Assembly (NCBI GenBank): GCA_028688895.1
Contig: JAQTXG010000001.1
Coordinates: 1 to 64,000 of the forward strand
Source: Candidatus Altimarinota bacterium
GTDB lineage: Bacteria > Patescibacteriota > Gracilibacteria > BD1-5 > UBA6164
Direction: 5' to 3'
Length of the DNA stretch: 64,000 nucleotides
Below the pieces are notes generated by a model. It saw only the letters and a list, made by a program, of their open reading frames with translations. It was not told the origin of the DNA and did no database searches. Position 1 is the stretch's first letter. Every line of letters starts with the position of its first letter. The position numbers and the translations under genes were made by a program. Below, one piece after another: positions 1,074 through 46,727 of this stretch.

Positions 1074-3767
1074 ATGGAATTAGCAAATTTTATATGAGCA
1101 TGACTTGCAGTATGACTTGCAGGTATATGAGTTGCAATGTGACAATGATTTTTATCAAAAAGATCAGTTGAAATAATATGAAAGAATAAAGAGATGGCAT
1201 CTTTTTATCTGACAATTACGATTTTGTGAATGGCATTAGTTGAATCTGCTGTTATATATTGATTGATTATAGCATTTCAGATAATGGGTAATGATTCGAT
1301 TACTATGTCAGCATCTATATGAGCATGATTAGCAGTATGATTAGCTTGATTTTGAGCATGATACTGAGAATGAAAACTTATAGGTTGAGCTATTACAGCA
1401 ATAGATAGGAACCCAGAAATAAAGTGAAAGATAATGACTCTAATGGTTCTATTTGTAGCTTTAGTTGAATCAGCAGCTATATATTGATTAGTAGTAGCAT
1501 TCAAAATACTTTGAGCAGAAGATATGGATTCAAACGCTTTTATTTGAATGTGATGTGCAGTATGATTTGCATGATTATGAGTTTCTATTTGAGAATGACT
1601 ATTAGCTGAAAAATCTATGGAAGTCATATGAAAGAGACAAGATATGACAGCTTTCTTTCTGACATTGACTATATTATGAATAGCATTAGTTGAATCTGCT
1701 GCCATATATTGATTGATAGTAGCATTTCAATTATTTGCAAAAGAATGAATAAGTTTATGAGCATCAATTTGAACTTGATTATCTATATGATTGGCATGAT
1801 TGTGAGCTTGATTATGAGAATGAATACTAGTATGATGAGCTATAAAATCGATAGACAAAAATCCAGAAATGAAATGAAAAATAATGACACTAATGGTATT
1901 GTTTGTAGCACTAGTAGAATCAGCAGCTATATATTGATTGGTAATCTCGTTTAAAATTTTATGAATGACTGATTTTACATCTATGTCATTTATATGAATG
2001 TGATTAGCTGTTTGATTGGCATGATTATGAGTATCTATATGAGAATGAATAGCAGCAGAAAAATCATTGATAGCGATTTGAAAAAGACCTGAAATGTTAT
2101 GATTTTTTCTAACAGTAACTATTTTATGAATAGCCTTGGTAGAATCAGCAGCTATCTATTGATTAATAGTCGCATTTCAATTATTCTGAACTGATTCTAT
2201 TAGTTTGATAGCAGCAGCTTGAGCATGATTAGCTATATGATTGGCATGATTATGAGCATGAGCATGAGAATGAATATTGGTATGATGAGCAATCTCTGCT
2301 ATGGAAACAAATCCAGAAGCAAAGTGAAAAATAATGACATTAATGGTATTATTTGTAGCACTTGTAGAATCAGCAGCTATATATTGATTGGTAATTGCTT
2401 TCAAAATCATCTGAATGGATGACTTCACTTCTATGGCATTTCTATGAATGTGATTTGCTATATGATTTGCATGATTATGAGTATCTATATGAGAATGAAT
2501 AGCAGCAGAGAAATCACTACTTGCTATATGAAGAAAACCAGATATGACATGATTTTTCTTAACAGTAACTATTCTATGAATAGCTTTGGTCGAATCAGCA
2601 GCCATATATTGATTAATAGTTGCATTTCAATTAATTGTAAAAGATTGAATTAGTATGGTAGCAGCAGCTTGAGCATGATTAGCTATATGATTAGCTTGAT
2701 TATGAGCATGAGTATGAGAATGAATTCTTGTATGATGAGCTATTAAGGCTATGGAAAAAAATCCAGAAGTAAAATGAAAAATAATGACTCTTATGGTACT
2801 ATTTGTAGCACTAGTAGAATCAGCAGCTATATATTGACTAGTTATTTCATTTAAAATCCTATGAATGGATGACTTCACTTCTATGGCATTTCTATGAATG
2901 TGATTTGCTATATGATTTGCATGATTGTGAGTATCTATATGAGAATGAATAGCAGCAGAAAAATCATTGGAATCTATTTGAATGAGACCGAAAATGACAT
3001 GATTTTTCCTAACAGTAACTATTCTATGAATAGCCTTGGTAGAATCAGCAGCTATATATTGATTAATAATATCATTTCAATTGTTTTGAAATGATACGAT
3101 TAGTTTAGCAGCAGCAGCTTGAACTTGATTGGCTATATGATTAGCTTGATTGTGAGCATGAGTATGAGAATGAGTACTAGTATGATGAGCAATAAACGCT
3201 ATGGCTAGAAATCCAGAAATCAAAAACAAACTACTTACACTTATGGTATTGTTTGTAGCTTTGGTAGAATCAGCAGCAATATATTGATTGGTAATATCAT
3301 TTAATATACTTTGATTAACAGATACTACTTCAACAGCATATACATGAATGTGATTAGCTATATGATTGGCATGATTATGAGTATCTATTTGAGAATGATA
3401 TCTAGCTAAATGATCACTTGAAGTAATATGAAAAAACCCTAAAGCATTTGGTTTCTTTCTTACTATTACAATATTATGAATAGCCCTAATCGAATCAGCA
3501 GCAATATATTGATTGATAATAGCATTCCAAATCTGATCACTTGATTGATTTTCTTGAATGTTATCTATGACAGCTTGATTTGCTATATGATTAGCATGAT
3601 TATGAGCTTGAGTATGAGAATGATTGTTGATCAAATGAGCTATAGATTGAATGAATATAGCACCAGAATCTAGATGAAAAACTCTTACACTTATGGTACT
3701 ATTCGTTGCATTGGTAGAAGTAGTTGCTATTTATTGATTGATAGTAGCATTTAAAGTATTATGATAA
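1074..3767 (+). CDS. atpE: Giant F-type c subunit: twelve covalently linked hairpins
   Basis: The 897-residue protein sits exactly where atpE belongs, but a normal c subunit has 70-90 residues and one hairpin. Here twelve hairpins follow each other with an exact 75-residue period. The helix-2 carboxylate occurs at E57, E132, E207, E282 and so on to E882, in the motif ALVESAAIYGL. Helix 1 carries GxGxGEG 33 residues earlier (E99, E174 and onward), except the first hairpin, which has Q24. Two types alternate: odd hairpins have an AEKSxxxIGKRP-like loop with a FFLTxTILG helix 2, and even hairpins have GGAIxxxxxNPExKGK with TLMVLFVALVE. The E-33-E spacing plus Ser and Tyr after the second Glu resembles the two-carboxylate Na+ site known from Fusobacterium c rings. 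I infer that one chain forms a whole c12 ring. The known parallel is the 13-hairpin archaeal K subunit of Methanopyrus. Both ends of the ORF are clean. Confidence 0.96.
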
Positions 3768-30033: not shown

Positions 30034-32325
30034 ATGTACCAAATTACACAAAACTACATCACCTACCAAAACACTTGAAAAAGTCTGATTTTTAGAGCTG
30101 ATTTGCATCTCATATGATGATGTAATTTTAAGTGTGTGATGTGTGATAATTGGAAAAGAGAAATAGAGATGAAATTCACAGAAGATGACTTATACAAAAT
30201 AATTCTAAAACTAAAAAATGATTATAACTGCAATTACATAAGATTTCATGGGCAAGAACCAACTATGTATAGCAAATTGGAAGACCTAATAGCATTCTCA
30301 AAAAAACTGTGATTAAAAGTCGCAATCAAAACTAATGCATGGCTACTTAGTGATAAAAGATTGGTGAAAATATTAAAATATTGATTGGATGAATTGTATT
30401 TGTCTATAGATGGACCAAATGCTGAGATACATGACTATATCAGATGAGTAAATGGATCATTTGCAAAAAATATCGATATAATAAAAAAATCAAAAAAGAT
30501 AAATCCAGATTTAAAGATATACATAAATTCAGTTGTAATGAATTACAACTTTGAAACTCTTGAGCAAATGATAGATTTGTGAAAAAAATACGATATAGAT
30601 AGAGTGAGTTTTGTTTTTTTGAATGATAAGAATAGAAAAGATATTGATAGTTTGAATTTAACTAAACAAGAGTTTTTTTATTTCTTTAATGAGAAAGTGA
30701 AACTTATTTATGAGAAAGCTAAGTTGTACAATATAAATGTAGATTTTTCACCATTTATAAGTGAATTAGTATGAAAAAACAATGAAGAAGTATTGCAAAA
30801 ATTAACAGATATAGAAAAATACCAATGAGAAATAAATAGCTTCTATGAATGAATTTATGGAAAATATTTCTATGACAAATATGGTTGTTTTTGACCACTA
30901 GACCATTCATCTATCAATTATACTGGTGATATGTATGGTTGTTGTGTAGTGGAGAGAAATACTAGTGTATCAGTATGAAATGTATTACAAGATGATATCT
31001 CAGAGATAAAAAATAGTCCAAAATATGAAAAATATAGACAAAACTCAAATGAAAAATGTGGATATGCTTCTAAATGTGCTAGTAATTTCTATACTAGAAA
31101 AACACTATTCAAAGAAATATATTTAAATGATGAACTCTATGATAAAAGTATAGCTATTAATTATTATAGATATTTAAAAGAATTATTTACAGAAGATGAG
31201 TCTATAATAAATAATATAAAACTAAAAAAATTAAAAGAACAATTACTTCATTTTTATGATAATCTGGAATTTTATAGAGAATTATTATTAAATAATAATA
31301 TCAGTAAATCAGATATAGTAAATATTAATTCTCTAGATTTTATAGAGAAATTACCAATCTTGGATAAAGATATTTTGAAACTAAATTATGAACAAATAAT
31401 AAAATTAAGCGAAAATAAACAAGTACTTTATTGAAAAACATCATGAAATACATGAAATGCTTTTAGATTTGTTTATCCACTAGATTTCAAAAGACATATC
31501 AAACAAATTGCTATTTTTTCTGGGGAATCTGACTTCACATTCAAAGATTCATATTTCTTACTGACACCGATTAACTGTAATCAAAAAGCTATAAATAATA
31601 TAAGAGAACCTGATTATGTAAAAAAAATATATATTAGTATATCAGATTTTTATTTCGATAAAGAGTATTTTATAAAAATACAAAAACTATTTATAGATAA
31701 TAAAAATACTAAATATCTCCATGCAGATGCTAAATATTTATTGTATTTAATACTTTGATTCCATAAATTTGATTTAGAATTACCGAAATTGAAAGCTATA
31801 AGTCTGACTTATACTTATACAAATAAAAGTTTAAAAGAATTTATAAAACAAGTGTTTGATTGTAATGTATTAGATAATTATGGATGTAGTGAAGTGTGAC
31901 CAATCAGTATAGATATAGACTCAAATAAGAAATTGTATTGAGATAATATTATTTTTGAAGAGTTAAATTGAGAATTTGTAGTTACAGATTTAGATAATCC
32001 TTATTTTCCATTTATTAGATACAAAAATGATGATTTATGAAAATATGATTGAAATAATATAATAATAAATGGAAAGAAAAATCAATTATTAAATAGTAAA
32101 TCACTTAGAGATTTAGATGATTTTTTCAGTGAATATTTCAGTGAAATACTATTTTATCAGTTTGATGAAAATAAGTTGTTTTATTTTTCTTTTAACAATA
32201 TTGATAATGTTTTGTTAAAAACGAAGTTAAATCAATTTCTTTGAATAGATTTTGAAGCAATAAAAATATGAGAAAATGAGTTTTTTGAATTAGGGGATTG
32301 TAGTAAATTTAAAACAATTATATAA
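30034..32325 (+). CDS. Radical SAM/SPASM enzyme fused to an adenylate-forming (PaaK/CapK-like) domain
   Basis: The 763-residue protein has a radical SAM core with CNFKCVMC at residues 30-37, GQEPTMY, LSIDGP and a SPASM end (CFGP...GDMYGCCV...CGYASKC) up to about residue 355. The second half resembles phenylacetate-CoA ligase and CapK proteins. It has the ATP-binding loop LYGKTSGNTGNAF near residue 465 and NYGCSEVGP near 614, which are the usual adenylation motifs. Such a domain would activate a carboxylate as an acyl-AMP. The fusion suggests radical modification followed by activation or ligation of the same substrate. It opens a run of seven plus-strand radical SAM genes. Confidence 0.87.
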
Positions 32326-32327
32326 TC

Positions 32328-33641
32328 ATGAGTGAAAAAATTATAAAAGAAACAAAAAGTCTACAAAAATCAGTAGTAAATCTAACTATACAACTAACTG
32401 ATTTCTGTAATTTTTCATGTAAATATTGCGTAACCTGAAAAAAATTCAGCTGACAATATATTAATAAAAATGATTTTGAACAAATAGAAACATTAATAAA
32501 AAAACTTAAAAATATATATAAAATGGTAAATATTACTATTTCATGAGGAGAACCAACTTTATGTAAAGATTTTTTTCTATTATTGAAAATTATTACTAAT
32601 TTAGATGTAAATATTATTATTAATACAAATTGATTTATTTTTTCAAAAGAGAGTATAAAAGTAAATGAATTATCTAAACTACAATTTGTAAACAATATAG
32701 ATTTCAATGTTACATTTCATTTTAAGGAATACGAGAAAAGTTTTAATACATTTATAGAATCAATAAAAGTATTAGATATGTACAACATAAATTACTGAAT
32801 CAATTTCTTGCTACCAGACGATGAAAAATATGAAGATTTTATAGATGTAAGAGACAAAATACTATCTTCATTATTAGTAAATAGACATACATACAACCTT
32901 ATAAAACTAACAAATGGCAATATATCGGAATCATATGACAATAGATATCTAGATTTATTTAATGAAAAGTTTAAACAAGAAATAAAAAATAAAAACATAG
33001 AAATTATATATGATGATTTGGAAAAAGAAAAATTAAATACTAGTGAAATCCTATATAAATGATTAAATAAATTTTGATGATATAAATGCAATTATTTTTC
33101 AAAACAATTTTTAAATATATATATAAACACAGATTTATCCATATATTTTTGAAGTTGTTTTACCTTAAATAGACTTAAGTATTCTTTTGCAGAATTGTAC
33201 ATACTATTGGATAAAAGTGCAGAAAAAAGTATTGTATGTTGAGATTATTCTTGTTTGTGTGATTTGGATTATAATTCAAACAAAAAAAGAATATCAAACA
33301 ATACATTTAGAAACAGTATATCACAAATTATAAACAAACTTGTAGATAAATATACAGAAATATTAGATTTATCTATATCAAACAATAGCATACAAATTAT
33401 ATTATTATCAAAAAACATATATTATTTTGTTACTATAGAAAAAATAATAGATAAAAATACAAAATATCCATATACTGATTGAGAATTATGATACCATTAT
33501 TTTACAAAAAATCTATATAATGAATTTATAAATATAAATCAGTCAAATAAAGATTTTATAAACATATTTATGAAAAGGTTATTCATATTTAATAGTATAT
33601 TTAAAAAATTATTAAACAATTTAAATGAAAAAAATACTTAG
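32328..33641 (+). CDS. Radical SAM enzyme 7
   Basis: The 437-residue protein has CNFSCKYC at residues 27-34 and SGGEPTL downstream. A C-terminal half has scattered cysteines (KCNYF, FGSC, VCGDYSCLC) that could bind auxiliary clusters. The last 130 residues are Ile-, Asn- and Lys-rich and unrecognised. It starts 2 bp after the fusion gene and overlaps the next gene by 17 bp, which makes an operon very likely. Confidence 0.86.
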
Positions 33642-34956
33642 TTTAAAATCAACCGAAAAAGTAATCAATATAACTTTCAATATCACTTACAAATGCAATT
33701 TTAAGTGTTATTATTGTTTCGCTTGAGAACTTAGTGATAAAACTTTTGAGTTCAATATTGAAAACAAAACAAAACTATATATTTTTATAAAGTCAATTAT
33801 TAAAAATAATATAGACATAAAAATCAAGTTTTTAATCACTTGATGAGAACCTATTTTGAATAAAGACTTTTGAGAACTGATTGAATTTTTACTATGATTT
33901 AAAAGTATTTATGTAACTGTCACGAGTAATATATTTTTACTAGGAAAGATTTATGATAAACTAGAAATATTTAAAAATAATAGATTTCTATTAATTCCGA
34001 CTTTTCATTACTTTGAATACCAAAAATATGATCTAGACACAAAAATATTTATAAAAAATATAAACATTTTACAAGAAAAAAATATAAACTTTGATATAAA
34101 TTTTCTCATACCTACTAATTATTCTGATTTTACAGAATTTAAATCAAAATATGAAAAAATTATATTAGAATGTAATCTAGAAAACAATCAATATCACTTA
34201 GATTTGATACAAGAAAAACAAGTTATTTCAGAGAATTATGACAAATATATACTAGATTATTTTTATTATGAAAAGTTAAAAAATCATACAAGAAAAAATA
34301 CATTGAATATAATATTTGATGATAAATCAAGTAAAACTTATGACAATAAAAGTATTATAGAAAAATGATTAAATGATTTTAAATGATACAAGTGTTTTCC
34401 TTTTGAAATACCTACAAACTTGATGATTGATTATGATTTAAAATGTGTTTTTGCATGATGTACCACTCTAATAAATCAAACATATGATTTGGTCGAAGTC
34501 ACAAAATTACTCAATAACTGAAAAGATAATTATGTGATATGTAATACTTCAAATTGTTCATGTCTAGCAAATATACCGATAAAAAAAATTTACAACGAAT
34601 CTACATATAACAGATTATCAAAAATAAAAAATATATTAAATGATAAATTGAGAGACTTTTTAGTTTTAGATTGACTGGATTTTGTAGAAATAGATGTAAA
34701 TACAAATACTAAATCATTAAGTATTTCATATAGTTCTATAAATAAAAACTATTTTTTACATATTATGATAGAACAATCAAATCCAAAATTAAATTACAAA
34801 AAGACTTTCAATTGATTATGAGTTTATACCTACATTACAAATTATCAATGATGAATAATCAATTATGAAATATCAGAGTTTGACTTTAATCAAAATAAAA
34901 TATTTACCAAGATTCAAAAAATAGTCCCAATTTTATTAAAAGTACTTAGATTATAA
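33625..34956 (+). CDS. Radical SAM enzyme 8
   Basis: The 443-residue protein contains CNFKCYYC at residues 24-31 and an ITGGEPILN segment. A Cys-rich region appears about residues 255-330 (YKCFPF, KCVFAGC, ICNTSNCSC). Its length and the position of those cysteines match the preceding gene, so the two look like diverged paralogues. The start lies within the upstream gene and the stop abuts the next ATG. Confidence 0.86.
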
Positions 34957-37002
34957 ATGAAAAAAAACATATTATTTTATTATCACAATTTCTGATGACT
35001 AGGTCATGGGAATAGAATATCTTTAATTATAGGAAATATAATTAAGTATTTTTGAGATGAGTATAATATTATAGTTATTAATAGTTGAGAAAAACAAGAT
35101 TTTTTATTTCCAAATAGTAAAAATCTCAAAATAATAAACCTACCAAACTACAAATTTGAGAATTACAAATTAACGCAAAATGAATACAATAAAAAAATAA
35201 AAATATATAGAAAAAATATATTTGATAAGCTTTTAAATATAACAAAAATCGAATCATTAGTGATTGAACATTATCCATTCTGAAGAAATTTTTTGGATGA
35301 TGAATTCATATATTTAATCAGAGAATACAAAAAAAACAATGATAGGTGAAATGTCTTTTCATCTGTTCGTGATGTATTTGATATAGATTCTATTCAAGAA
35401 AAAAATCTAGAATTATTTGATAGATTTCTCATTCATAGTGATGAGAAAATCATAAATTACAATGATAAATTTCATAAAAATATATCTAAAAAAATAATAT
35501 ATACTTGATTTATAGTAAATGATATATTCAAAGATACTAAATCTGAAAACAATCATATTCTCATAAGTATATGATGATGACAAGATGGAATGGAATTCGT
35601 AGTCGATTTTTTAGAAAAATTAAACAATACTAGTTTTGATTGAAAAGTATTTGTGAATTTATGAAAGAATTATACTCAAGATAATATGGAAAAAATAAAA
35701 TCCATATCAAATAACAAATTAGAAATAAAATCATATTTTGATAATTTTTTAGAATTAAAAATACAATCAAAATTAGTTGTAACTATGTGATGATACAATA
35801 ATCTATATGAAAATATTTATTATAAAAAAACTACAATTATCTATCCTAGAAAATCAGATATAGAACAGCAAACAAGACTAGATATATTATCAAAAAACCT
35901 GGATTATATTTATAATGGAAATAAAATTAATTCAAAGGAACTATCCAATATTTTTATTATTCCAAATTCCCCAGCCTTACAAAACAGGGGGATATCCGAA
36001 GGACAGGGAGAGGTTAATCAGGGATTAAATTTCTCATGAGCATATTTTTCAGCATCTTTCATAACAAACTATAAAAAATACAAATACATCAAAATCAGAC
36101 TTACAAATGCCTGTAATGCTACTTGCGATATGTGCTGAGTCATAAAAAGAAAACGGAAATACAATAATGTAATAAATTTAAAACAATCCATACTAGATTT
36201 CTATAAGCTATGATGAGAAGTCGTAAATTTTACATGATGAGAACCAACTATTTATAATTGATTTGTAGAATTACTCGAATTTACCAAAAATTTATGATTA
36301 ATAACATCAGTTTCAACTAACTGATCTACACTTTGAAAATTGGAAATAAAATTAATCGACTTCATTGATATATCTATTGATTGATTATATGAACTTCATG
36401 ATAAAATCAGGTGAATAAAATGATTATTTAATACTATAGATGAAAATATTTCTAAATTAAAAGAGCATTGAATAAATGTACATATAAATTTTACTATTAG
36501 AAATGATAATATATCAAGTGTTAAGGAATTTTTTGATTTCTTTAAAGCTAAAAAAGTCGATTCTATTTCATTTTCTATGATTTCTACTTCACCTATAAAT
36601 AATACTAAAAATCTATTTCCTAACAAAGTACAATTAAAAAAATTTTACGATATAGATAAAAAATATATACTTAAAAATAAATACAATATAAAAATAGATT
36701 TTTCACCTGATTTCAATTGATGACATTTCGATAAATTTATGGATTTCATAGTAAAAAATAATAGTTTTGAAAAAATAAAGTGAAATAATTGTAGTTTTAT
36801 CAAATCAAAAAAAGAAATTAGGATAAATGAAAACTGAAATATATCTCCTTGTTGTATATTGGATGATTATGATGAAAATATATGAAATATTTATAAAAAT
36901 AATTTAATAGATATAATTTGCAATAAAGAATACGAAAATTTTTTAAACAAGAAATTTCCATATATATCTAAAGCATGTTTAAATTGTAAAATAGAAATAT
37001 AA
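34957..37002 (+). CDS. Fusion of MurG-like glycosyltransferase and radical SAM/SPASM enzyme
   Basis: In this 681-residue protein, residues 1-330 look like a GT28/MurG-type glycosyltransferase (GGLGHGNRIS near 13, SIGGGQDGMEF near 208, TMGGYNNLYENIYYKKTTIIYPR near 285). Residues 380-681 are a radical SAM domain with CNATCDMC at 386-393, TGGEPTIYN, ISIDG and a SPASM end with GNISPCCILD and CLNCK. The two are joined by a linker encoded by a palindromic repeat (35958-36032). The two activities may act on one glycosylated product, or the repeat may have helped fuse two neighbouring genes. Confidence 0.87.
35958..36032. repeat. In-frame palindromic repeat at the domain junction
   Basis: TTCCCCAGCC...CAGGGGGATATCCGAAGGACAGGGAGAGG is GC-rich against its surroundings. 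It encodes the linker between the glycosyltransferase and radical SAM domains. Confidence 0.65.
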
Positions 37003-37003
37003 T

Positions 37004-37942
37004 ATGAATTACAAAAGACTAGAAATATATGTTTGATGGACATGCAATCAAAAATGTACATACTGTATGGAGTTTCCAAATATGGAAAAAAATTGGACAA
37101 AAAAAGTTACAAAATACGATATACTAAAAAAATTAATCAAGTACAAAAAAAAATGATACAATCATGTGACTTATCTATGATGAGAGCCATTCATACAACC
37201 AGTATTTTTAGATGCTCTAATGTTATGAAAAAAACTATGATATACTATATTGGTTACTACAAATGCATCTACATTACACATAGTATCACAAGCATCAAAA
37301 TATTTACCAAAAATAGATGAATTAATTTTATCAGTAGAAGCTATAGATAGAGAAACACAGCAAAAGATATCTAGGACAAATGTATATGTTCAATGGGAAA
37401 AAGTATTTGAGAATATTTATACATTTTGGAAATGAGCCTATCTAAAAGCAAACATAGTAATCACAAAAGACAATCTAGAGATTTTGTCAGATATCATTAT
37501 TTATCTAAAAGAAAAATGAGTAAAAGACATAGCAATCACATATCCAGATATAGATATAGAGTATTACTGAGAAAAACATATTTTGGAAACAGTAGCTATT
37601 AAATACAGTGATGCAGTAAAAAAAGTACTGCCTATAATCGATTACTGTGATAAAAATAATGTAAACCTCAAAATTCCAGACTTTCCATTTTGTGTACTAC
37701 CATATGATGAAAATAACAAGTACATAAAACTAACAGATGATTATGATTATCAAACTAGAGTAAAAATTCTCAGTAGTGATCATGAGCTAGATAGAAAAGA
37801 TTTGAGCAACATTAGTTTGACTCCAAGAGATAGAAAACATTCTGAAATATGTCTAGAATGTAAATACAAAAATATCTGTTGGTGACACTCTGTATGATAC
37901 GAAAGTCTGTTTTGATTATCTGAAATAAAAGCAATAAAATAA
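37004..37942 (+). CDS. Radical SAM enzyme 10
   Basis: The 312-residue protein has CNQKCTYC at residues 14-21, YLGGEPFIQP, LSVEAID and a C-terminal CLECKYKNICWGH motif. That C-x2-C-x5-C ending is shared with three later radical SAM proteins (37945, 38924, 45777) and separates them from the SPASM-like set on the other strand. It starts just after the preceding stop codon. Confidence 0.88.
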
Positions 37943-37944
37943 AT

Positions 37945-38934
37945 ATGTATATAAATGAAATAATCAGAGTTACTTACAAATGCAATTGGAAATGTAAGTT
38001 TTGTAATGTACTTAAAACTAACAATTTTTGAGAAAATGATATTACAAGCAAAGAAATAATTATTCAGATTTTAGATATAGCTAGAAAATATAGCAAAGAT
38101 GAACTAAATAATACTACCTTGTCTTTATCATGATGAGAACCTACACTAAATAATAAGCTAAGCAAATATATAAAATTATCAAAAGCTATATGAGTATGAA
38201 ATGTACAAATTCAAACAAATTGAAGTACTATTTTTTCAGATTTTACTTTATTAGAATGATTGATTGATTCATGATTGGATGAGATTTTTTTTTCTAATCA
38301 TTCAAATGATTCTGAATTAAATAAAGCTATGTGAAGCTATACAAATACAGACAATTTTTTTAAGTTTTTAGCACATTTTGAGAAGAATAATTTAAATAAA
38401 AAAGTCAGAATTCTTACAAATATAGTGGTAAATAAATTTAATATATCAACAACAAAAGATTACATATCATTCCTAATCAAAAATAATTATTTTAAAATAA
38501 TTGATAATAATCATCTATCTATATGATTTGTTCAACCAAACTGATATGCAAATATAAACAAAGATGAAGTACTATTAAAATATGATGAAAAAGAATTAAA
38601 TTACATCAAGGATTTTGTATTATTTTGTGAATCAAACTGATTGTCTCTAGATTTTCATTTTACAGCTCCTCCTATTTGTACATTAGATTACAGAGAATAC
38701 AATCTAGAATATGATAGATTAAAACAACTAGAAAACGATAAAACAAAATGAAATCTAATAGAACCAAACCTAGAAAAATACGAATGGCTATGGAAAGAAA
38801 AACAAAAATTTTCAGAATGTAATAAATGCAAATACAATGATTATTGTTTGTGATTTTACAAAAACTGGCTAAGTTTCGTATGAGATGATTACGCAAAAGA
38901 GAAAATAAATAATTTTTTAAAAAATGGAAAATAA
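37945..38934 (+). CDS. Radical SAM enzyme 11
   Basis: The 329-residue protein shows CNWKCKFC at residues 13-20, SLSGGEPTL near 53 and the ending CNKCKYNDYCLGF. An internal APPICTLD cysteine occurs before the ending. It lies 2 bp after the previous gene and overlaps the next by 11 bp. The substrate is unknown. Confidence 0.88.
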
Positions 38935-40198
38935 ACAAAATTTATTATCAAAAGAAAAAACAACCAAACAAAATAGAGTTTGGGTGCGTATTACTGCTGC
39001 TTGTAATAATAAATGTTTGTTTTGTCTAGATTCAGATGCCCAAAACTGAGTATTAGTAAAAGAAGATATAGTCAAACAAGAAATAAAAAAATGATTCAAA
39101 GCATGATATGAAAATAGAGTAATAATTTCATGATGAGAAGCATCAATAAATCCTAAATTTAATGAATACATAAAGTTTGCTAGGGAACTATGATATGATA
39201 GAGTGCAAACTGTTACGAACTGAAATATGTTTCATAGTTTTGATTTTTGCAAAAAAGTAGTAGATGCATGACTACAAGAGATTACTTTTTCTTTTCACTG
39301 ACACAATTCTACACTTCATGATTATCTAGTAGCTACTCCTTGAGCTTTTAATAGGTCCATTAAATGATTATTGAATATAAAGAAATATTTTCCAGAAGTA
39401 ATTGTAAATATAGATATAGTAGTTAATAAAGTAAATGTTAGATTTTTGCCAGATATAGTTAAGTTTTTCATGAAGTTTTGAGTTTATGAATATGATATAT
39501 TGCAAATAATACCATTTGGCAGATGATTTAAAGAATATAAAAGAAAACTTTTTTATAATATATCTGAGAATATAGAATACTTACAAAAAACATGGGAATT
39601 ATCAAAAATACCATGAATGTATATGTGGACAAATAGATTTCCAGCTGAAGCATTTGAATGATATGAAGACTTGATCCAAGATCCTAGAAAGATGAAATCA
39701 GAAGTCATGTGAGAAGCCTACGATATGTTTGAAAAATTTATAAAATCAAACTGAAAAATAAAACCAAATTGTTATGGTGATGCTTGCAGTGTATGTTTTC
39801 AAAAAGACTATTGCCATAGTTTTTTAGAGAATATTGACGCTAAAAAACTGGATAAAATAGCTACTAATGATGCTATTATTATATCATGAGAAGAATTTCC
39901 TAGTCAAGTATATGAAAAATACTGAGATAAAATAGAAGACTTCAAAAATAAACTAATATCATATAACAAAAAGTTAATAAATATACCTAAATGTATATGA
40001 TGAACATGAATATATCAAACATATAATGATATAAAAGAGCAAGATTCTTTAGAAGATTACACTTATAAATACATAAATAATTTATATAGAATTAAGTCTT
40101 TGAACTGTAAAAAATGTAAGTATGATAAAGATTGTAATTGATTGCATATTAATTTTGTGAGGAGTTATTGATTTAAGGTATTTAATATTGTAGCTTAA
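38924..40198 (+). CDS. Radical SAM enzyme 12 with two C-terminal cysteine clusters
   Basis: The 424-residue protein has CNNKCLFC at residues 27-34, ISGGEASINPKF and TFSFHG. It has two successive Cys-rich ends: CYGDACSVCFQKDYCHSF near residue 285 and CKKCKYDKDCNGL near 398. This suggests two auxiliary clusters or a duplicated ending. It is last in the plus-strand run and is followed by about 90 bp and a terminator. Several parts resemble the later gene at 45777, though that one has a single ending. Confidence 0.88.
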
Positions 40199-40526: not shown

Positions 40527-40554
40527 TTGACAAAATTATATAAAAAATTAAAAT
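40527..40554 (+). promoter_or_regulatory. Strong promoter in front of the decamer array
   Basis: A perfect TTGACA at 40527-40532 is followed after 16 bp by TAAAAT at 40549-40554. Transcription would begin near 40562, about 25 nt before the repeat array. Confidence 0.55.
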
Positions 40555-40584
40555 AATTTTATTATAAAAATAACAAAAAAGTAT

Positions 40585-40692
40585 ATGCTACAACAAGCTA
40601 CAACAAGCTACAACAAGCTACAACAAGCTACAACAAGCTACAACAAGCTACAACAAGCTACAACAAGCTACAACAAGCTACAACAAGCTTAG
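40585..40692 (+). CDS. Possible 35-residue repeat peptide
   Basis: ATG at 40585 opens a frame across the array to TAG at 40690. Because the 10-bp unit is not a multiple of three, the peptide has a 10-residue period, LQQATTSYNK, repeated three times and then LQQA. It has no Shine-Dalgarno site. It may be an incidental reading frame of the repeat or a real small peptide; I rate coding as the less likely option. Confidence 0.3.
   Translation: MLQQATTSYNKLQQATTSYNKLQQATTSYNKLQQA
40587..40690 (+). repeat. Ten tandem copies of the 10-bp unit GCTACAACAA
   Basis: The unit GCTACAACAA is repeated ten times without a mismatch and ends in GCTTAG. No spacers exist, so it is not a CRISPR. The array lies between a consensus promoter and a 19-bp stem terminator. 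The rest of 40322-40526 is AT-rich with several imperfect inverted repeats and no gene that I can support. Confidence 0.95.
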
Positions 40693-40713
40693 AAAATGCA
40701 TTAAACTGTTTTG

Positions 40714-40772
40714 AAAAGAACAGGTATTTATTTGTGAATTAAAGTTCATGAATAAATACCTGTTCTTTTTTC
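40714..40772 (+). terminator. Long hairpin terminator after the decamer array
   Basis: AAAAGAACAGGTATTTATT at 40714-40732 pairs perfectly with AATAAATACCTGTTCTTTT at 40751-40769, followed by T residues. The 19-bp stem with an inner GTGAA/TTCAT pairing is much longer than the other terminators of the window. Confidence 0.75.
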
Positions 40773-40795
40773 GTTCATTAACATAGACAGAAATC

Positions 40796-40855
40796 CCACC
40801 CCCTAGCCCTCCAGCTAAAACTGGACAGGCTCTCCCTAGTAAGGAGGAAGAATAG
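40796..40855. repeat. Dispersed palindromic repeat, inverted family B relative
   Basis: CCCACCCCCTAGCCCTCCAG, then CTAAAACTGGACAGG and CTCTCCCTAGTAAGGAGGAAG carry the TTTAGCTGGA core in reverse orientation. It lies 35 bp before the DGR target gene. Confidence 0.6.
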
Positions 40856-40890
40856 TCCAAAATAAATTTTTAAAACTAACCTAATTTACT

Positions 40891-43029
40891 ATGAATAAAC
40901 ATAAAAAACAAAGTGCATTTACCCTAGTTGAACTAATAGTTGTAATCACTATACTAGCTATTCTTTGAACAATAGCATTTATTAGTTTACAATGATATAG
41001 TGCAACAGCAAGAGATAGTACTAGAATAAGTGATATGTGAAGTATGAAAACATGACTAGAATTATTTAATCTAGATGCAGGAAAATACCCAACACCAAGT
41101 GATGAAACAATAATCACATATAGCTGAGCAACAGCATGGACACAATGATATTTTGGTGAACAAACAAAAGAAAATATAGATAAACTAGATAAAATCCCAA
41201 CAGATCCACTTACAGATAAGAAATATGTATACAGTACAACAAATACAAGACAAGAGTTCCAACTAGCATGAGCTATGGAAGGGGATGAAATATCAATGAA
41301 TAATGAACAATGAATAATGAATAATGTAGCCTCATCTCCCCTGACACGTGTCCAGTCTTTAGCTGGAAGGGGAGAATTGAGAGGGGTTTTAAATACAGAA
41401 ACACAAGCAGCAGAAAAAACAGCAAGACTAAAAATAAGTGGATCATATAATGGTAAATTATTAAAAGTAAGTACATGAAGTACAGATTATGTACTAGCAG
41501 TACCAAGTATAATCACATCAAGTGGAACAGACTTACAAGTAATATCAGCAAATAATTATCTAGCATATAATGGCTATAAAAACCTACCATTTCAATATGC
41601 AGGTACATATAAAACAGATGGAGAAACAAACTTGAATCTAGTTAATTCTTCAAATCTAGTAATATTTTCATGAAGTTTAACTACACTATCAGACACTACA
41701 AGTTTATGACAAACAGCTAGAATAAATCTACTAACAAATTTACAAAATGCATACACTGGAACTACTTTATCAAGTGTATGAGAAATAGCACAAATATTGA
41801 ATACAAATACAAGTGATTCAACAGAAACAGAACAACTTACTACAACGATAGTGAGAAATAATTTATGAGGAAAGATAATAGCAAGTGGATGAAATACTAC
41901 TACTTACTCATCTTGTGATTTTAACTGAGAAACAGTATCACATGATACATCAGTAACAGCATATGAAACTACATCAGTAAGCTTCTGAAATGAATGTAAT
42001 AGTGAACAAAGAATGTGTAATAACGGTACTTTAAATGGAACCTTTACATTTACATGATGTACAGTACAATGAGCAACTGGTACATTTAATCTAAGTCAAA
42101 CAACAGTAACACAGTGAACAAATGTAACAATAAGTAATACATGTTCACAAGCACCAACAAGCTATACAAGCTCAAACACAGCAGTAGCAACGGTTGCATG
42201 AACGACAATTACAACATTATCAGCAGGTACAACAGATATAATACCAGTATGATGAGCATGTTGAGATAATGTATGAAAAACTTTGACTGTTAATAGTCCA
42301 ACTTGGGTACAATTAGATCCAAATTGTAATATACCTGATATAACAATCTGAACTCAAACATGGGCTGGATGTAATTCTACACTATGAACATGAATAGAAT
42401 ATACAAATCAAACATACTGTTATAATTATGATAAAGATTGAAATTGAACAATTGATAACATATGAGTAAGTGCATGATGTTGAGCATGAAACTATTGAGA
42501 TAGTAATGATAATGCTCTAACTTACTTTAATAGTTTAGCTTGAAATGCAACAAACTCAAACTGAGATACAGAATATAATACTATATGGTGAAAACTATAT
42601 ACATGGAGTATTGCAACAATGTGAAGTACAGATATAAATGGAAATATAATCCAAGCAGATAATGATAGTATATGTCCAGCATGACGGCATGTTCCAAGTG
42701 ATGTAGAATGGACTACATTAGAGAATTATCTTAACTGATCACCTTGTAGAACATGAGATTGATGGCAATGTGACTGACTTTGATGGAAAACAAATGTAAG
42801 TTATAATCCAGATAGGAAACTATCAGATGCTTTAAAAATCCCCTTAGCTGGTTACCGTAGTACTGATGGTGTTACTTTCGACAGTCGTGGTTACTATACG
42901 TACTTGTGGTCAAGTACGCCTAGTGCTGGTAATGCTTATTTCAGGCACTTGCGTTGGGATAATTCCACAGTATATCGCTTTAGCGATAGTCAGGCGTACG
43001 GCTTCAGTGTTCGTTGTTTAAAGGATTAA
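40891..43029 (+). CDS. Pilin-like DGR target protein with C-terminal variable region
   Basis: The 712-residue protein begins with a type IV pilin or pseudopilin signal (SAFTLVELIVVITILAIL, residues 8-25), processed by a prepilin peptidase after the Ala. A Ser/Thr/Asn-rich middle follows with cysteines in Ig-like repeats. The C-terminal domain is of the FISUMP type, which adopts a C-type lectin-like fold: CPAGRHVPSDVEWTTLENYL, then WSSTPSAGNAY and a final GFSVRC. The variable region covers 42842-43018. A palindromic repeat is translated in frame at 41326-41386. The protein probably displays a diversified binding face on a pilus or at the cell surface. Upstream glycines are often TGA, but none in the variable region are. 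Confidence 0.92.
41326..41386. repeat. In-frame palindromic repeat inside the DGR target gene
   Basis: GTAGCCTCATCTCCCCTGAC, then CCAGTCTTTAGCTGGA and AGGGGAGAATTGAGAGG match the intergenic copy at 4657-4730. Here they are translated as VASSPLTRVQSLAGRGELRG. Confidence 0.8.
42842..43018 (+). repeat. DGR variable region (VR)
   Basis: This 177-bp segment aligns without gaps to the template at 44147-44323. It differs at 18 positions in 15 codons, and every difference is at a template adenine. All 15 altered codons are AAC or AAT in the template. Seventeen AAY codons are present, so two are currently unchanged. Confidence 0.97.
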
Positions 43030-43045
43030 TCTGACGATAGTCAGA
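43030..43045 (+). other. Hairpin with GATA tetraloop just after VR
   Basis: TCTGAC-GATA-GTCAGA forms a six-base-pair stem with a GRNA-type loop, 11 bp downstream of VR. DGRs studied in Bordetella phage need such a hairpin beside VR for efficient target recognition, so this is probably the same element. Confidence 0.6.
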
Positions 43046-43156: not shown

Positions 43157-43495
43157 ATGAGGAAAAATAGTTATGAAAATCTTAATGATTGATTCGTGAA
43201 TTTGTATAAAGAATGAATTTTTGTGAGATGTTTTGAATTTTCAGCGATTTTAGTTTCAGAGTTAACTTGATATAGACTATATGCAAATATAGATAGAAAA
43301 ACATGATTTATATTTTTGGAGCTTTGATTTCCAAAAGGTTATAAAGAAAAAGTTATTAAAGATTTAGAAATAAGATGAAATTTTATAAGGATAATAGATA
43401 AAAGTTGAAATATTACTGAAACTATTTGAGTTAATAAATTGGACAAAGATAGTGAAAAATTAATAAATTTAAAAACTAACTTAATTAAATTTTAG
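43157..43495 (+). CDS. Small protein of the DGR cassette, unknown
   Basis: The 112-residue protein lies between the target gene and avd, one base before the avd start codon. It has mixed alpha/beta character (GFVNLYKEGIFVRCFEFSAILVSELTGYRLYANI, then FIFLELGFPKGYKEKVIKDL). Some DGR cassettes carry an extra gene with similarity to the N-terminal part of MutS, and the LYKEGIFVRCFEFSA segment is loosely like it, but I would not name it on that basis. Its tight link to avd suggests a role in retrohoming. Confidence 0.75.
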
Positions 43496-43496
43496 A

Positions 43497-43865
43497 ATGG
43501 CAACATATGATAACCTACCAGTTTATAAAGAAAGTTATGATTTGTTAATTTTAACTTTTAGTGTTGTAAAAAATTTTGAGAAACAATATAAATATACTAT
43601 TTGAGATAAAATAAAAAATGAAATAGTTGATTTGATAACAAGTATATACAGAGCTAATTCTAGCTTTGAAACTAGATTGCAAAATATAAAAAAATCAAGA
43701 GAACAAATAGAAGTATTAAAACTTTATTTTAGATTATCAAGAGATTTAAAAATAATAAAGTTGTCATATTTTGCAGATTTAAGTTTTAAAACAGAAAGTC
43801 TAAGTAAACAACTTTATTCTTGGGAAAATTCAATAAAGATTAAAAAAGAAACTAAAATTTTATAA
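43497..43865 (+). CDS. avd: DGR accessory variability determinant (Avd)
   Basis: The 122-residue, all-helical basic protein belongs to the four-helix-bundle family shared by Avd and the 23S rRNA intervening-sequence proteins. Indicators are PVYKESYDLLILTFSVVKNFEKQYKYTIGDKI at the start, followed by IYRANSSFETRLQNIKKSREQIEVLKLYFRLSRDLKII. Avd forms a pentamer that binds the reverse transcriptase and template RNA. The gene lies directly upstream of the template region, the usual order. Confidence 0.9.
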
Positions 43866-43886: not shown

Positions 43887-43936
43887 TTTCTCCCTTTTCC
43901 AAAGGGAGTACCGAGGAACGATGGGAGGGATTAGAA
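43887..43936. repeat. Dispersed palindromic repeat, family A, in the template-RNA leader
   Basis: CTCCCTTTTCCAAAGGGAG followed by TACCGAGGAACGATGGGAGGGATTAG lies between avd and TR. It would be part of the transcribed template RNA. Confidence 0.7.
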
Positions 43937-44146: not shown

Positions 44147-44323
44147 CCTTAGCTGGTAACCGTAATACTGATGGTGTTACTTTCAACAATCGTGGTAACA
44201 ATACGAACTTGTGGTCAAGTACGCCTAGTGCTGGTAATGCTTATAACAGGAACTTGAATTGGAATAATTCCACAGTAAATCGCAATAGCAATAGTCAGGC
44301 GAACGGCTTCAGTGTTCGTTGTT
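44147..44323 (+). repeat. DGR template repeat (TR)
   Basis: This is the 177-bp invariant donor for VR. It contains 17 AAY (Asn) codons at the diversified positions. Mutagenesis of both adenines in AAY gives NNY, which can encode 15 amino acids and no stop. The offset to VR is a constant 1305 bp with no gaps. Confidence 0.97.
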
Positions 44324-44417: not shown

Positions 44418-45638
44418 ATGATTCAAAAACAACTTTTATATGACCTATTTCAATCATACTACGATGCAAGAAAAAATAAAAGAAACACTATTAATTCACT
44501 TGATTTTGAATTTAGGCTAGAAGAAAATCTTATAAATCTATATGAAGAATTGATATCATGAAAATATGAAGTATGAAAAAGTATTTATTTTATACAAACT
44601 CATCCAGTAAAAAGAGAAATTTTTGCTTGAAACTTCAGAGATAGAATAGTTCATCATTTGATTTACAATTATATCTCTCCTATATTTGAAAAAAACTTTA
44701 TATATGATAGTTATAGCTGTAGAAAGTGAAAATGAACAAGTTTTTGAATAAAAAGAATTGAAAAGTTTATAAGAAGTTGTAGTGAAAATTATAAAGAAGA
44801 TTGTTACATATTAAAACTGGATATTTCAGGCTATTTTATGAGCATAGACAAAGATATATTATTTGAAAAGATAGAAAAAATACTAAAAAACTATTACTCC
44901 CTTTTCCAAAGGGAGTACCCGCAGGGGGAGGGATTAGAACCAAAGTACATTTATAATTTAGACTACAACTTAATACTTAATCTTATAAAAAAAGTTATTT
45001 ATAATGACCCAACAAAAAATGCTATATTCAAGTGAAAAAGAGAAGATTATATATGACTACCTAAAAATAAAAGTTTATTTTTTGCTGAACCATGAACTGG
45101 ACTTCCTATTTGAAATTTAACAAGTCAACTTTTCTCAAATATATATTTAAGTGATTTTGATAAATATGTAAAAAATGAATTGAAATGTAAATATTATGGT
45201 AGATATGTTGATGATTTTATAATAGTTCACAAAGATAAAGATTATTTAACTAAACTAATACCTATAATAACTGCTTATTTAAAAGAAAATTTAAAACTTA
45301 CACTTCATCCTAAAAAGATATATTTACAACATTATACAAAATGAGTTTTGTTTTTGTGAGCTTTTATAAAACCACATAGAAAGTATATTAGGAAAAGAAG
45401 TATTTGATACTTTTATAACAAGATAAATCTTTTGAATAATAGAATAAAAAATAGTAATTATAAAGTGGATTATAGTTTAAAACAAGATTTTATAGCTATT
45501 TTAAACTCATACCTAGGTATGATGAAGCATTATAAAACTTATAAATTAAGAAGAAAAATACTTATAAATCAAGTTTCAGCTTATTTTTGGAACTATTTTT
45601 ATATAAGTTGATGATATAGTAAGGTGAAGAAGAAGTAG
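44418..45638 (+). CDS. DGR reverse transcriptase
   Basis: The 406-residue enzyme is an RT of the DGR/group II intron lineage. YVDD lies at residues 263-266. The [17 protein letters not shown] segment, typical of DGR enzymes instead of the common SQG form, precedes it, and FLGAFIKPH follows. It copies the TR RNA with errors at adenines. A palindromic repeat is translated in frame ([18 protein letters not shown]) between the fingers and palm. Whether this insertion is tolerated or has become useful is unknown. Glycines are freely encoded by TGA here. Confidence 0.96.
44896..44948. repeat. In-frame palindromic repeat inside the reverse transcriptase gene
   Basis: CTCCCTTTTCCAAAGGGAG, then TACCCGCAGGGGGAGGGATTAG and AACCAAAGTAC match the intergenic copies at 22083 and 62174. 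The insertion is read without a stop or frameshift. Confidence 0.85.
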
Positions 45639-45776: not shown

Positions 45777-46727
45777 ATGGCAAATATAGGCTACATACAA
45801 GTAAACAGATACTGTAACAATCAGTGTCATTTTTGTAGTAATCCGAGTAATTGAAACAATATAAGTTTAGAGAGATGAATAGAATTGATAGATGATTTTA
45901 TAAAAAGGGAATATAGCTGAATTATATTTACCTGATGAGAGCCTACATTGTCACCAGACTTAGCAAAATGGATAAATTATGCTAATGATGTATGAATGGA
46001 AAACAGAATGATATCAAATGGGATGATGTGTAGTGACTACAATTTTACCAAAAAATTAGCAGATGCATGATTGAAACTTGTACATTTTTCTGTTTATTCT
46101 TGTCACGAAAAAATACATGATTTTTTGACTGATACACCAGGTAGCTGGAAAAAATTGATGATGTCTATAACGAATGCATTGAAACTATGAGTAAGAGTAC
46201 AAATCAATACAGTTATAAATCATTACAACGAAAATCATCTAGATAAAACTGTGAAATTTCTAACAAAACATTTCCCTCAAATTAAACATTTTGTATGGAA
46301 TAATCTAGACCCTCTAATGATGAGAAAGACAAAAACAGCATTGTCTACTTTACCAAACTATGACGAAGCATCAAAATCATTATTAAAAGCAATGGCTTAT
46401 TTGGATTCAACCAATAGAACATTTAGAGTAGAGAGATTTCCACTATGTTATATGAGATGATATGAGTGGGCTTCAACAGAAACAAGAAAAATAGTAAAAG
46501 ATGAAGAGAGAATGGTTCATTTTTTAGATGAAAGAGAAACTATTAGACAAAACTGATTATGATGGGAACATGACAAACTAGAATGATGCAAAAAATGTGA
46601 TTTAAACAGTATTTGTTCAGGTATATTTGAGTATAAAAATTATTATAATTATGTAAAAGTATATCCACAAAAATTAAGTATTAGTGAAAAGGAAGAATTA
46701 ATAAAAAAAATAAAAGGGAAGTTTTAA
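45777..46727 (+). CDS. Radical SAM enzyme 13, downstream of the DGR
   Basis: The 316-residue protein has CNNQCHFC at residues 13-20, FTGGEPTLSPDL, HFSVYSCHEKIHDFL and the C-terminal ending CKKCDLNSICSGIF. It is most similar in layout to the gene at 38924. The DGR cassette thus lies between members of one radical SAM group. About 140 bp (45639-45776) before it contain no gene. Its 3' end overlaps the convergent prepilin peptidase gene by 4 bp. Confidence 0.88.

Follow-up and report, generated by a model that had tools for sequence, protein, structure and literature searches.

The DNA considered here is a 64,000-nt stretch (the window) at the start of contig JAQTXG010000001.1 of Candidatus Altimarinota bacterium, a member of the Gracilibacteria, and the element in question is a short leader, composed of a promoter-like site, a perfect tandem array and a terminator-like hairpin, which precedes the target gene of a diversity-generating retroelement (DGR). 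The leader includes the following features, among them an open reading frame (ORF) that runs through the array:

40527..40554, + strand: promoter match TTGACA-16-TAAAAT, with a similar distance from the pair to the ATG in relatives
40585..40692, + strand: leader ORF of 35 codons, ATG to TAG, with repeats (LQQATTSYNK)n; each of the 13 relatives' leaders that have upstream sequence likewise has an ATG leading into the array
40587..40686, + strand: array of ten exact GCTACAACAA units, each shifting the frame by one
40690..40692, + strand: stop TAG of exit frame 0, before the hairpin; predicted OFF frame, in use at ten copies
40713..40771, + strand: intrinsic terminator, a 26–27 bp hairpin and a T run
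40740..40742, + strand: stop TAA of exit frame 2, at the hairpin apex; predicted ON frame, e.g. at 11 copies
40784..40786, + strand: stop TAG of exit frame 1, past the terminator; predicted ON frame, e.g. at 9 copies

An earlier reading of this locus, made from the sequence only, had described ten perfect repeats between a TTGACA promoter and a hairpin, and most of this anatomy is borne out. The array was called by TRF at 40587–40689 (10.3 copies, 100 %), and a pattern search for the unit returned 10 exact matches, or 11 with one mismatch allowed, compared with 3.8 +/- 2.0 expected. The promoter match, in which TTGACA (40527–40532) and TAAAAT (40549–40554) are separated by a 16-nt spacer, agrees with the consensus at 11 of 12 positions. 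The terminator and its T run were likewise recognized correctly, but the stem, given as 19 bp, is longer: the hairpin at approximately 40713–40770 comprises 26–27 base pairs. The terminator scan, which counts a maximum of 20 pairs per stem, identified three overlapping terminator-like registers against 0.2 expected, and the folding of the transcript region gave z = -8.5, while no Rfam family matched at gathering score within the window. The sequence-only reading had also pointed to a repeat-peptide frame from ATG 40585 to TAG 40692; this frame is indeed open, as is the array in all three frames, and it is probably the important part of the locus. Additionally, a mini-ORF of the form ATG-NNN-stop (40696–40704) is found in the OFF frame 9 nt after the array and is kept in G002, G022, G032, G073 and G076.

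The genes downstream of the leader were read with code 25 (TGA = glycine), because genes that otherwise look sound contain in-frame TGA codons. The third frame of the leader also includes a TGA, which is a glycine codon in this code. They form the following cassette:

40891..43029, + strand: DGR target gene (code 25), with an N-terminal prepilin methylation motif and, at the C-terminus, a Fib_succ_major domain
42843..43018, + strand: variable repeat (VR), 176 bp at the 3′ end of the target
43157..43495, + strand: ORF of 112 codons, assigned to no family, with similar ORFs in relatives
43497..43865, + strand: bAvd-like accessory gene (Pfam PF22296, E = 9e-14)
44148..44323, + strand: template repeat (TR)
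44418..45638, + strand: DGR reverse transcriptase (RT), code 25 (Pfam PF00078, E = 6e-18)

The two repeats differ at 18 positions, and all 18 differences fall at adenines of the second copy; as this is the DGR signature, 42843–43018 is assigned as the VR and 44148–44323 as the TR. The cassette that follows the array is a DGR, in which the RT, the accessory protein and the adenine-specific TR/VR pair are all present. A perfect hairpin, TCTGAC-GATA-GTCAGA (43030–43045), lies directly 3′ of the target stop codon and resembles the hairpin found downstream of the VR in other DGRs.

The same leader recurs in relatives of the window genome. The search for the unit elsewhere, which had been proposed earlier, showed that two adjacent GCTACAACAA copies occur at a single place in the whole 1.8-Mb genome, while arrays of this unit are also present in G002 (3 copies), G032 (13), G073 (8) and G076 (12); G026 carries a GTTACAACAA version, as well as two-copy versions. 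The GCTACAACAA unit is identical across three genera, the relatives that share one unit differ in copy number (3, 8, 10, 12 and 13), and the recent expansion suspected in the sequence-only reading is borne out. In the named collection, the paired unit was found in six contigs, four of which are labelled Candidatus Gracilibacteria; single two-copy matches in Duganella lactea (L021) and in a bacterial metagenome-assembled genome (L022) were set aside as probably due to chance, and the viral collection yielded no match to the unit. A prepilin-like gene is located 3′ of the array in G032, G073, G076 and at two G026 loci, whereas the G002 contig ends where the target would be and retains just a trace, in antisense, of a prepilin start.

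Relatives of the DGR RT were detected in 16 of the 77 genomes of the order, and a short array lies upstream of the target at every one of the ten DGR loci with assembled upstream DNA (G000, G032, G073, G022, G007:C22, G053, G044, G059 and two in G057); the other DGR contigs were left out, as they break off within the target or shortly before it, or contain no recognizable target. The assessable loci share a common order of promoter, ATG, short array, terminator and target, each array being followed by a terminator-like hairpin. The arrays are perfect at nine of the ten loci and 93 % identical in G007, and their units (GCTACAACAA, GCTTCCACAA, CAAACAA, AAGC, TCAGCCG/CGTCAGC, GCCGAAC and AGCATCG) are 4, 7 or 10 nt long, in no case a multiple of 3. 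An array is present even at G007:C22, where the DGR target lacks a prepilin motif; there the RT matches only in pieces and the array contains variant units and internal stops, as expected if both were decaying.

Such arrays were sought in approximately 0.7 Mb sampled from five of the order's DGR genomes, using a threshold of at least 35 bp and at least 90 % identity, and no other perfect array was found in this sample. From the window genome, 384 kb were sampled, including the window and chosen to cover many other prepilin genes, and contained no second array above the threshold; none was present in 149.7 kb of G044, 100 kb of G053 or 60 kb of G073, and the 20.6 kb sampled from G022 contained one 9-bp array at 92 %. 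Only one prepilin-like gene of the window genome carries the repeat leader, among 37 prepilin matches genome-wide. When TRF was applied to DGR loci outside this order, from elsewhere in the class and phylum, no array was detected upstream of a target, the weak 7-bp tracts in L203 and L208 being located elsewhere. Because the sampled background contained no other perfect array and the DGR loci of other orders showed none upstream of a target, the leader seems to belong to the DGR targets of this order rather than to prepilins or to DGRs generally. The number of prepilin-like matches per genome was 37 in G000, 24 in G002 and 52 in G004, many of them at contig ends.

Judging from the sequences compared, the frame change, rather than the unit sequence, is what is conserved, because the units differ in sequence and yet none is a multiple of 3. 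With lengths of 4, 7 or 10 nt, every unit shifts the reading frame by one position. In every leader with upstream sequence an ATG opens into the array, at a distance of 2–8 nt in family f1 and 15–37 nt in family f2 (G053, G044, G059 and G057), and the −10 box is positioned 27–32 nt before this ATG in 13 of 14 leaders. In the window and in 11 of the 13 others, thus in 12 of 14, a single exit frame meets a stop ahead of the hairpin, no more than 6 nt from the array, and the remaining two frames of these leaders stop in the hairpin or beyond. With shuffled linkers, the probability of this one-early-stop pattern was 0.07–0.22 per locus, and its presence in eight of ten roughly distinct lineages corresponds to a nominal P = 1.1e-6; a three-way test (one stop each before, in and past the hairpin), applied to five f1 loci, gave 0.10–0.22 per locus.

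A leader of this kind has been characterized in the pil1 locus of Streptococcus gallolyticus, where an ORF with 22 GCAGA repeats ends tens of nt before a terminator (Danne et al. 2014, PMC3894217). When repeats are gained or lost, the frame changes, the peptide then terminates beside, inside or beyond the hairpin, and the pilus operon is transcribed more strongly; mutation of the leader start, deletion of one hairpin strand and chloramphenicol all had the effects expected from the model, the introduction of stops in every frame abolished heterogeneity, and the destabilization of the terminator by ribosomes was shown experimentally (PMC3894217).

These observations suggest that the window leader, as the 5′ leader of the DGR target gene, is most likely a slipped-strand phase-variable attenuator of transcription. 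Transcription would begin just downstream of 40554, a ribosome would initiate at ATG 40585 and read through the repeats, and slipped-strand mispairing would add or remove 10-nt units within the population, moving the exit frame by one per unit. A ribosome that leaves at TAG 40690, approximately 20 nt before the hairpin, would allow the terminator to fold, keeping the target OFF or low, while stopping at the apex or passage of the whole hairpin would let the ribosome block the terminator as RNA polymerase passes, and this antitermination would turn the target ON. Ten copies would correspond to OFF and 9 or 11 to ON. The role of the leader peptide is probably to set where the ribosome stops, not to provide a useful peptide. 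The leader promoter probably also drives the target itself by read-through, since no promoter-like site was found on the + strand between the terminator and the target in the window and since in G053 the target ATG follows the T run by approximately 25 nt, which is too close for an ordinary separate promoter. If the pil1 rule applies, the leaders of the window (n=10), G032 (n=13), G044 and G059 are predicted to be OFF, and those of G073 (n=8, stop at the apex), G002 (n=3), G076 (n=12) and G022 (n=5, stop in the hairpin) to be ON. In the two G057 leaders (L092 and L107) the exit frame that passes the hairpin is open in frame into the target gene, and there the repeat number could, in addition, create a fusion between leader peptide and target protein.

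Several points weigh against the attenuator. No clear Shine–Dalgarno site is seen before the window leader ATG, and two of the 14 leaders depart from the frame pattern: in G053 all three frames stop before the hairpin, and the G026:C34 array has decayed to two copies. The frame tests provide support rather than proof, as they were framed post hoc and the loci share ancestry. In some f2 species there is, moreover, a second promoter-like pair between the ATG and the array, the use of which would remove the ATG from the transcript. On this alternative reading of f2, the TTGACA just before the array would be the promoter, leaving no start codon; the upstream promoter-like pair has the same −10-to-ATG distance as in f1 and an ATG that opens into the array.

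The lower certainty of the f2 start codons, together with the position of the array in the transcribed leader of a surface gene, would fit a leader whose repeat length tunes expression without translation, through RNA length, stability or spacing. The repeats in the 5′ leaders of some adhesin genes (hmw1A, uspA2) have been proposed to act by such length-based tuning. We regard this explanation as unlikely here, as it accounts neither for the terminator in every leader, nor for the one-early-stop rule, nor for the ATG at the array. The sequence-only reading favoured an independent small RNA, about 210 nt long, with exposed repeats that would bind a protein or an antisense RNA, and the promoter-like and terminator-like sites of its own and the identity of the GCTACAACAA unit in three genera speak for it. 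Other genera, however, carry unrelated units in the same layout upstream of their DGR targets, and wherever the sequence continues the target gene comes next in the same direction. The target, moreover, has no other visible promoter, and in some species it starts within tens of nt of the terminator with no promoter of its own seen; these gap sizes and the unexplained exit-frame pattern make the small RNA quite improbable, and neither the independent unit nor the binding array is supported. The helical phasing inferred from the 10-bp period fails as well, since relatives' units are 4 and 7 bp long.

A secreted or structural repeat peptide, for which the open 35-codon frame could be invoked, is highly improbable, because its sequence and C-terminus would vary between species and with copy number. 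Slippage can create short perfect arrays without selection, but a neutral satellite that expanded by chance beside the target has equally little probability, given that all ten assessable DGR targets have both array and terminator and that the sampled parts of five genomes contain no other perfect array. Repeat–repeat pairing via the AGCU palindrome was discounted as the principal role, since that palindrome is missing from other units, and the lack of a conserved unit sequence led us to discard proteins that bind RNA sequence-specifically (Hfq, CsrA, Rho, TRAP-like).

Some further elements were noted in the window. Radical-SAM-like genes flank the DGR on both sides (30034–40198 and 45777–46727), two of them Pfam-confirmed as Radical_SAM and the rest recognized by cysteine motifs alone. 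G+C-rich palindromic insertions resembling miniature inverted-repeat transposable elements (MITEs) are present at 40796–40860, 41326–41390, 43893–43935 and 44893–44946, as well as at approximately 555 in L029; they are intergenic and also apparently in frame within the DGR target and RT genes. A MITE-like insertion occupies the terminator loop of the G002 leader, where the hairpin-passing frame stays open. A tandem array of ~450-bp units (5.3 copies, 79 % matches) at 1159–3530 is apparently coding.

Should the attenuator operate as proposed, two separate variation devices would act on one surface gene, the repeat counter on its expression and the DGR on its sequence, and each hypermutated surface protein would be randomly switched on and off as well as rewritten. 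Their co-occurrence on one gene, seen across an order, points to a stochastic switch as a possible gate on DGR output. Expression state could then be predicted straight from the sequence, as copy number modulo 3, which would be useful for uncultured Patescibacteria, and short repeats within a leader ORF ahead of a terminator offer a search rule.

The cassette resembles the bAvd DGRs (Bordetella phage BPP-1 type; Patescibacteria clade, PMC8144416) in its RT, bAvd-like gene and adenine-specific TR/VR differences, but a repeat and terminator leader on the target is not mentioned in the literature searched; nor did the open literature searched, which was not a full survey, yield an earlier account of a switch of this kind, either for a DGR target or for Patescibacteria. 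The simple-sequence-repeat contingency loci of Haemophilus, Neisseria and Campylobacter likewise place perfect short repeats at surface-protein genes, with variation expected from slippage, although those repeats usually act in the coding frame or the promoter, while the Gracilibacteria repeats are in a separate leader ORF before a terminator. As in trp-type attenuation, the position of the ribosome on a leader peptide would decide whether a terminator forms; the signal for trp is amino-acid supply, whereas in Gracilibacteria it would be the repeat number in the DNA.

The leader is pil1-like by nearly every sequence feature tested. Like pil1 and pil3 (PMC3894217), it combines a promoter, a leader ORF of perfect repeats with a unit length not divisible by 3, a terminator and a pilus or prepilin-like gene, and a single exit frame stops before the terminator while the others reach or pass it. 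It differs in belonging to another phylum, in its units of 4, 7 or 10 nt instead of GCAGA, in preceding a prepilin-like protein rather than sortase pili, in having a target that is also hypermutated by a DGR, in the distance from the OFF stop to the hairpin (~20 nt in the window against 28–49 in Streptococcus) and, in the window, in the lack of a clear ribosome-binding site. It is probable that this order of Gracilibacteria evolved a repeat-counting attenuator dedicated to DGR targets, apparently independently of Streptococcus, in which the unit turns over freely, whereas one OFF frame and two ON frames are preserved as the switch logic. A mechanism of this kind is already known; what appears to be new is its deployment in Patescibacteria and for a DGR target. 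The finding also suggests that the pil1 mechanism known from Streptococcus is more general.
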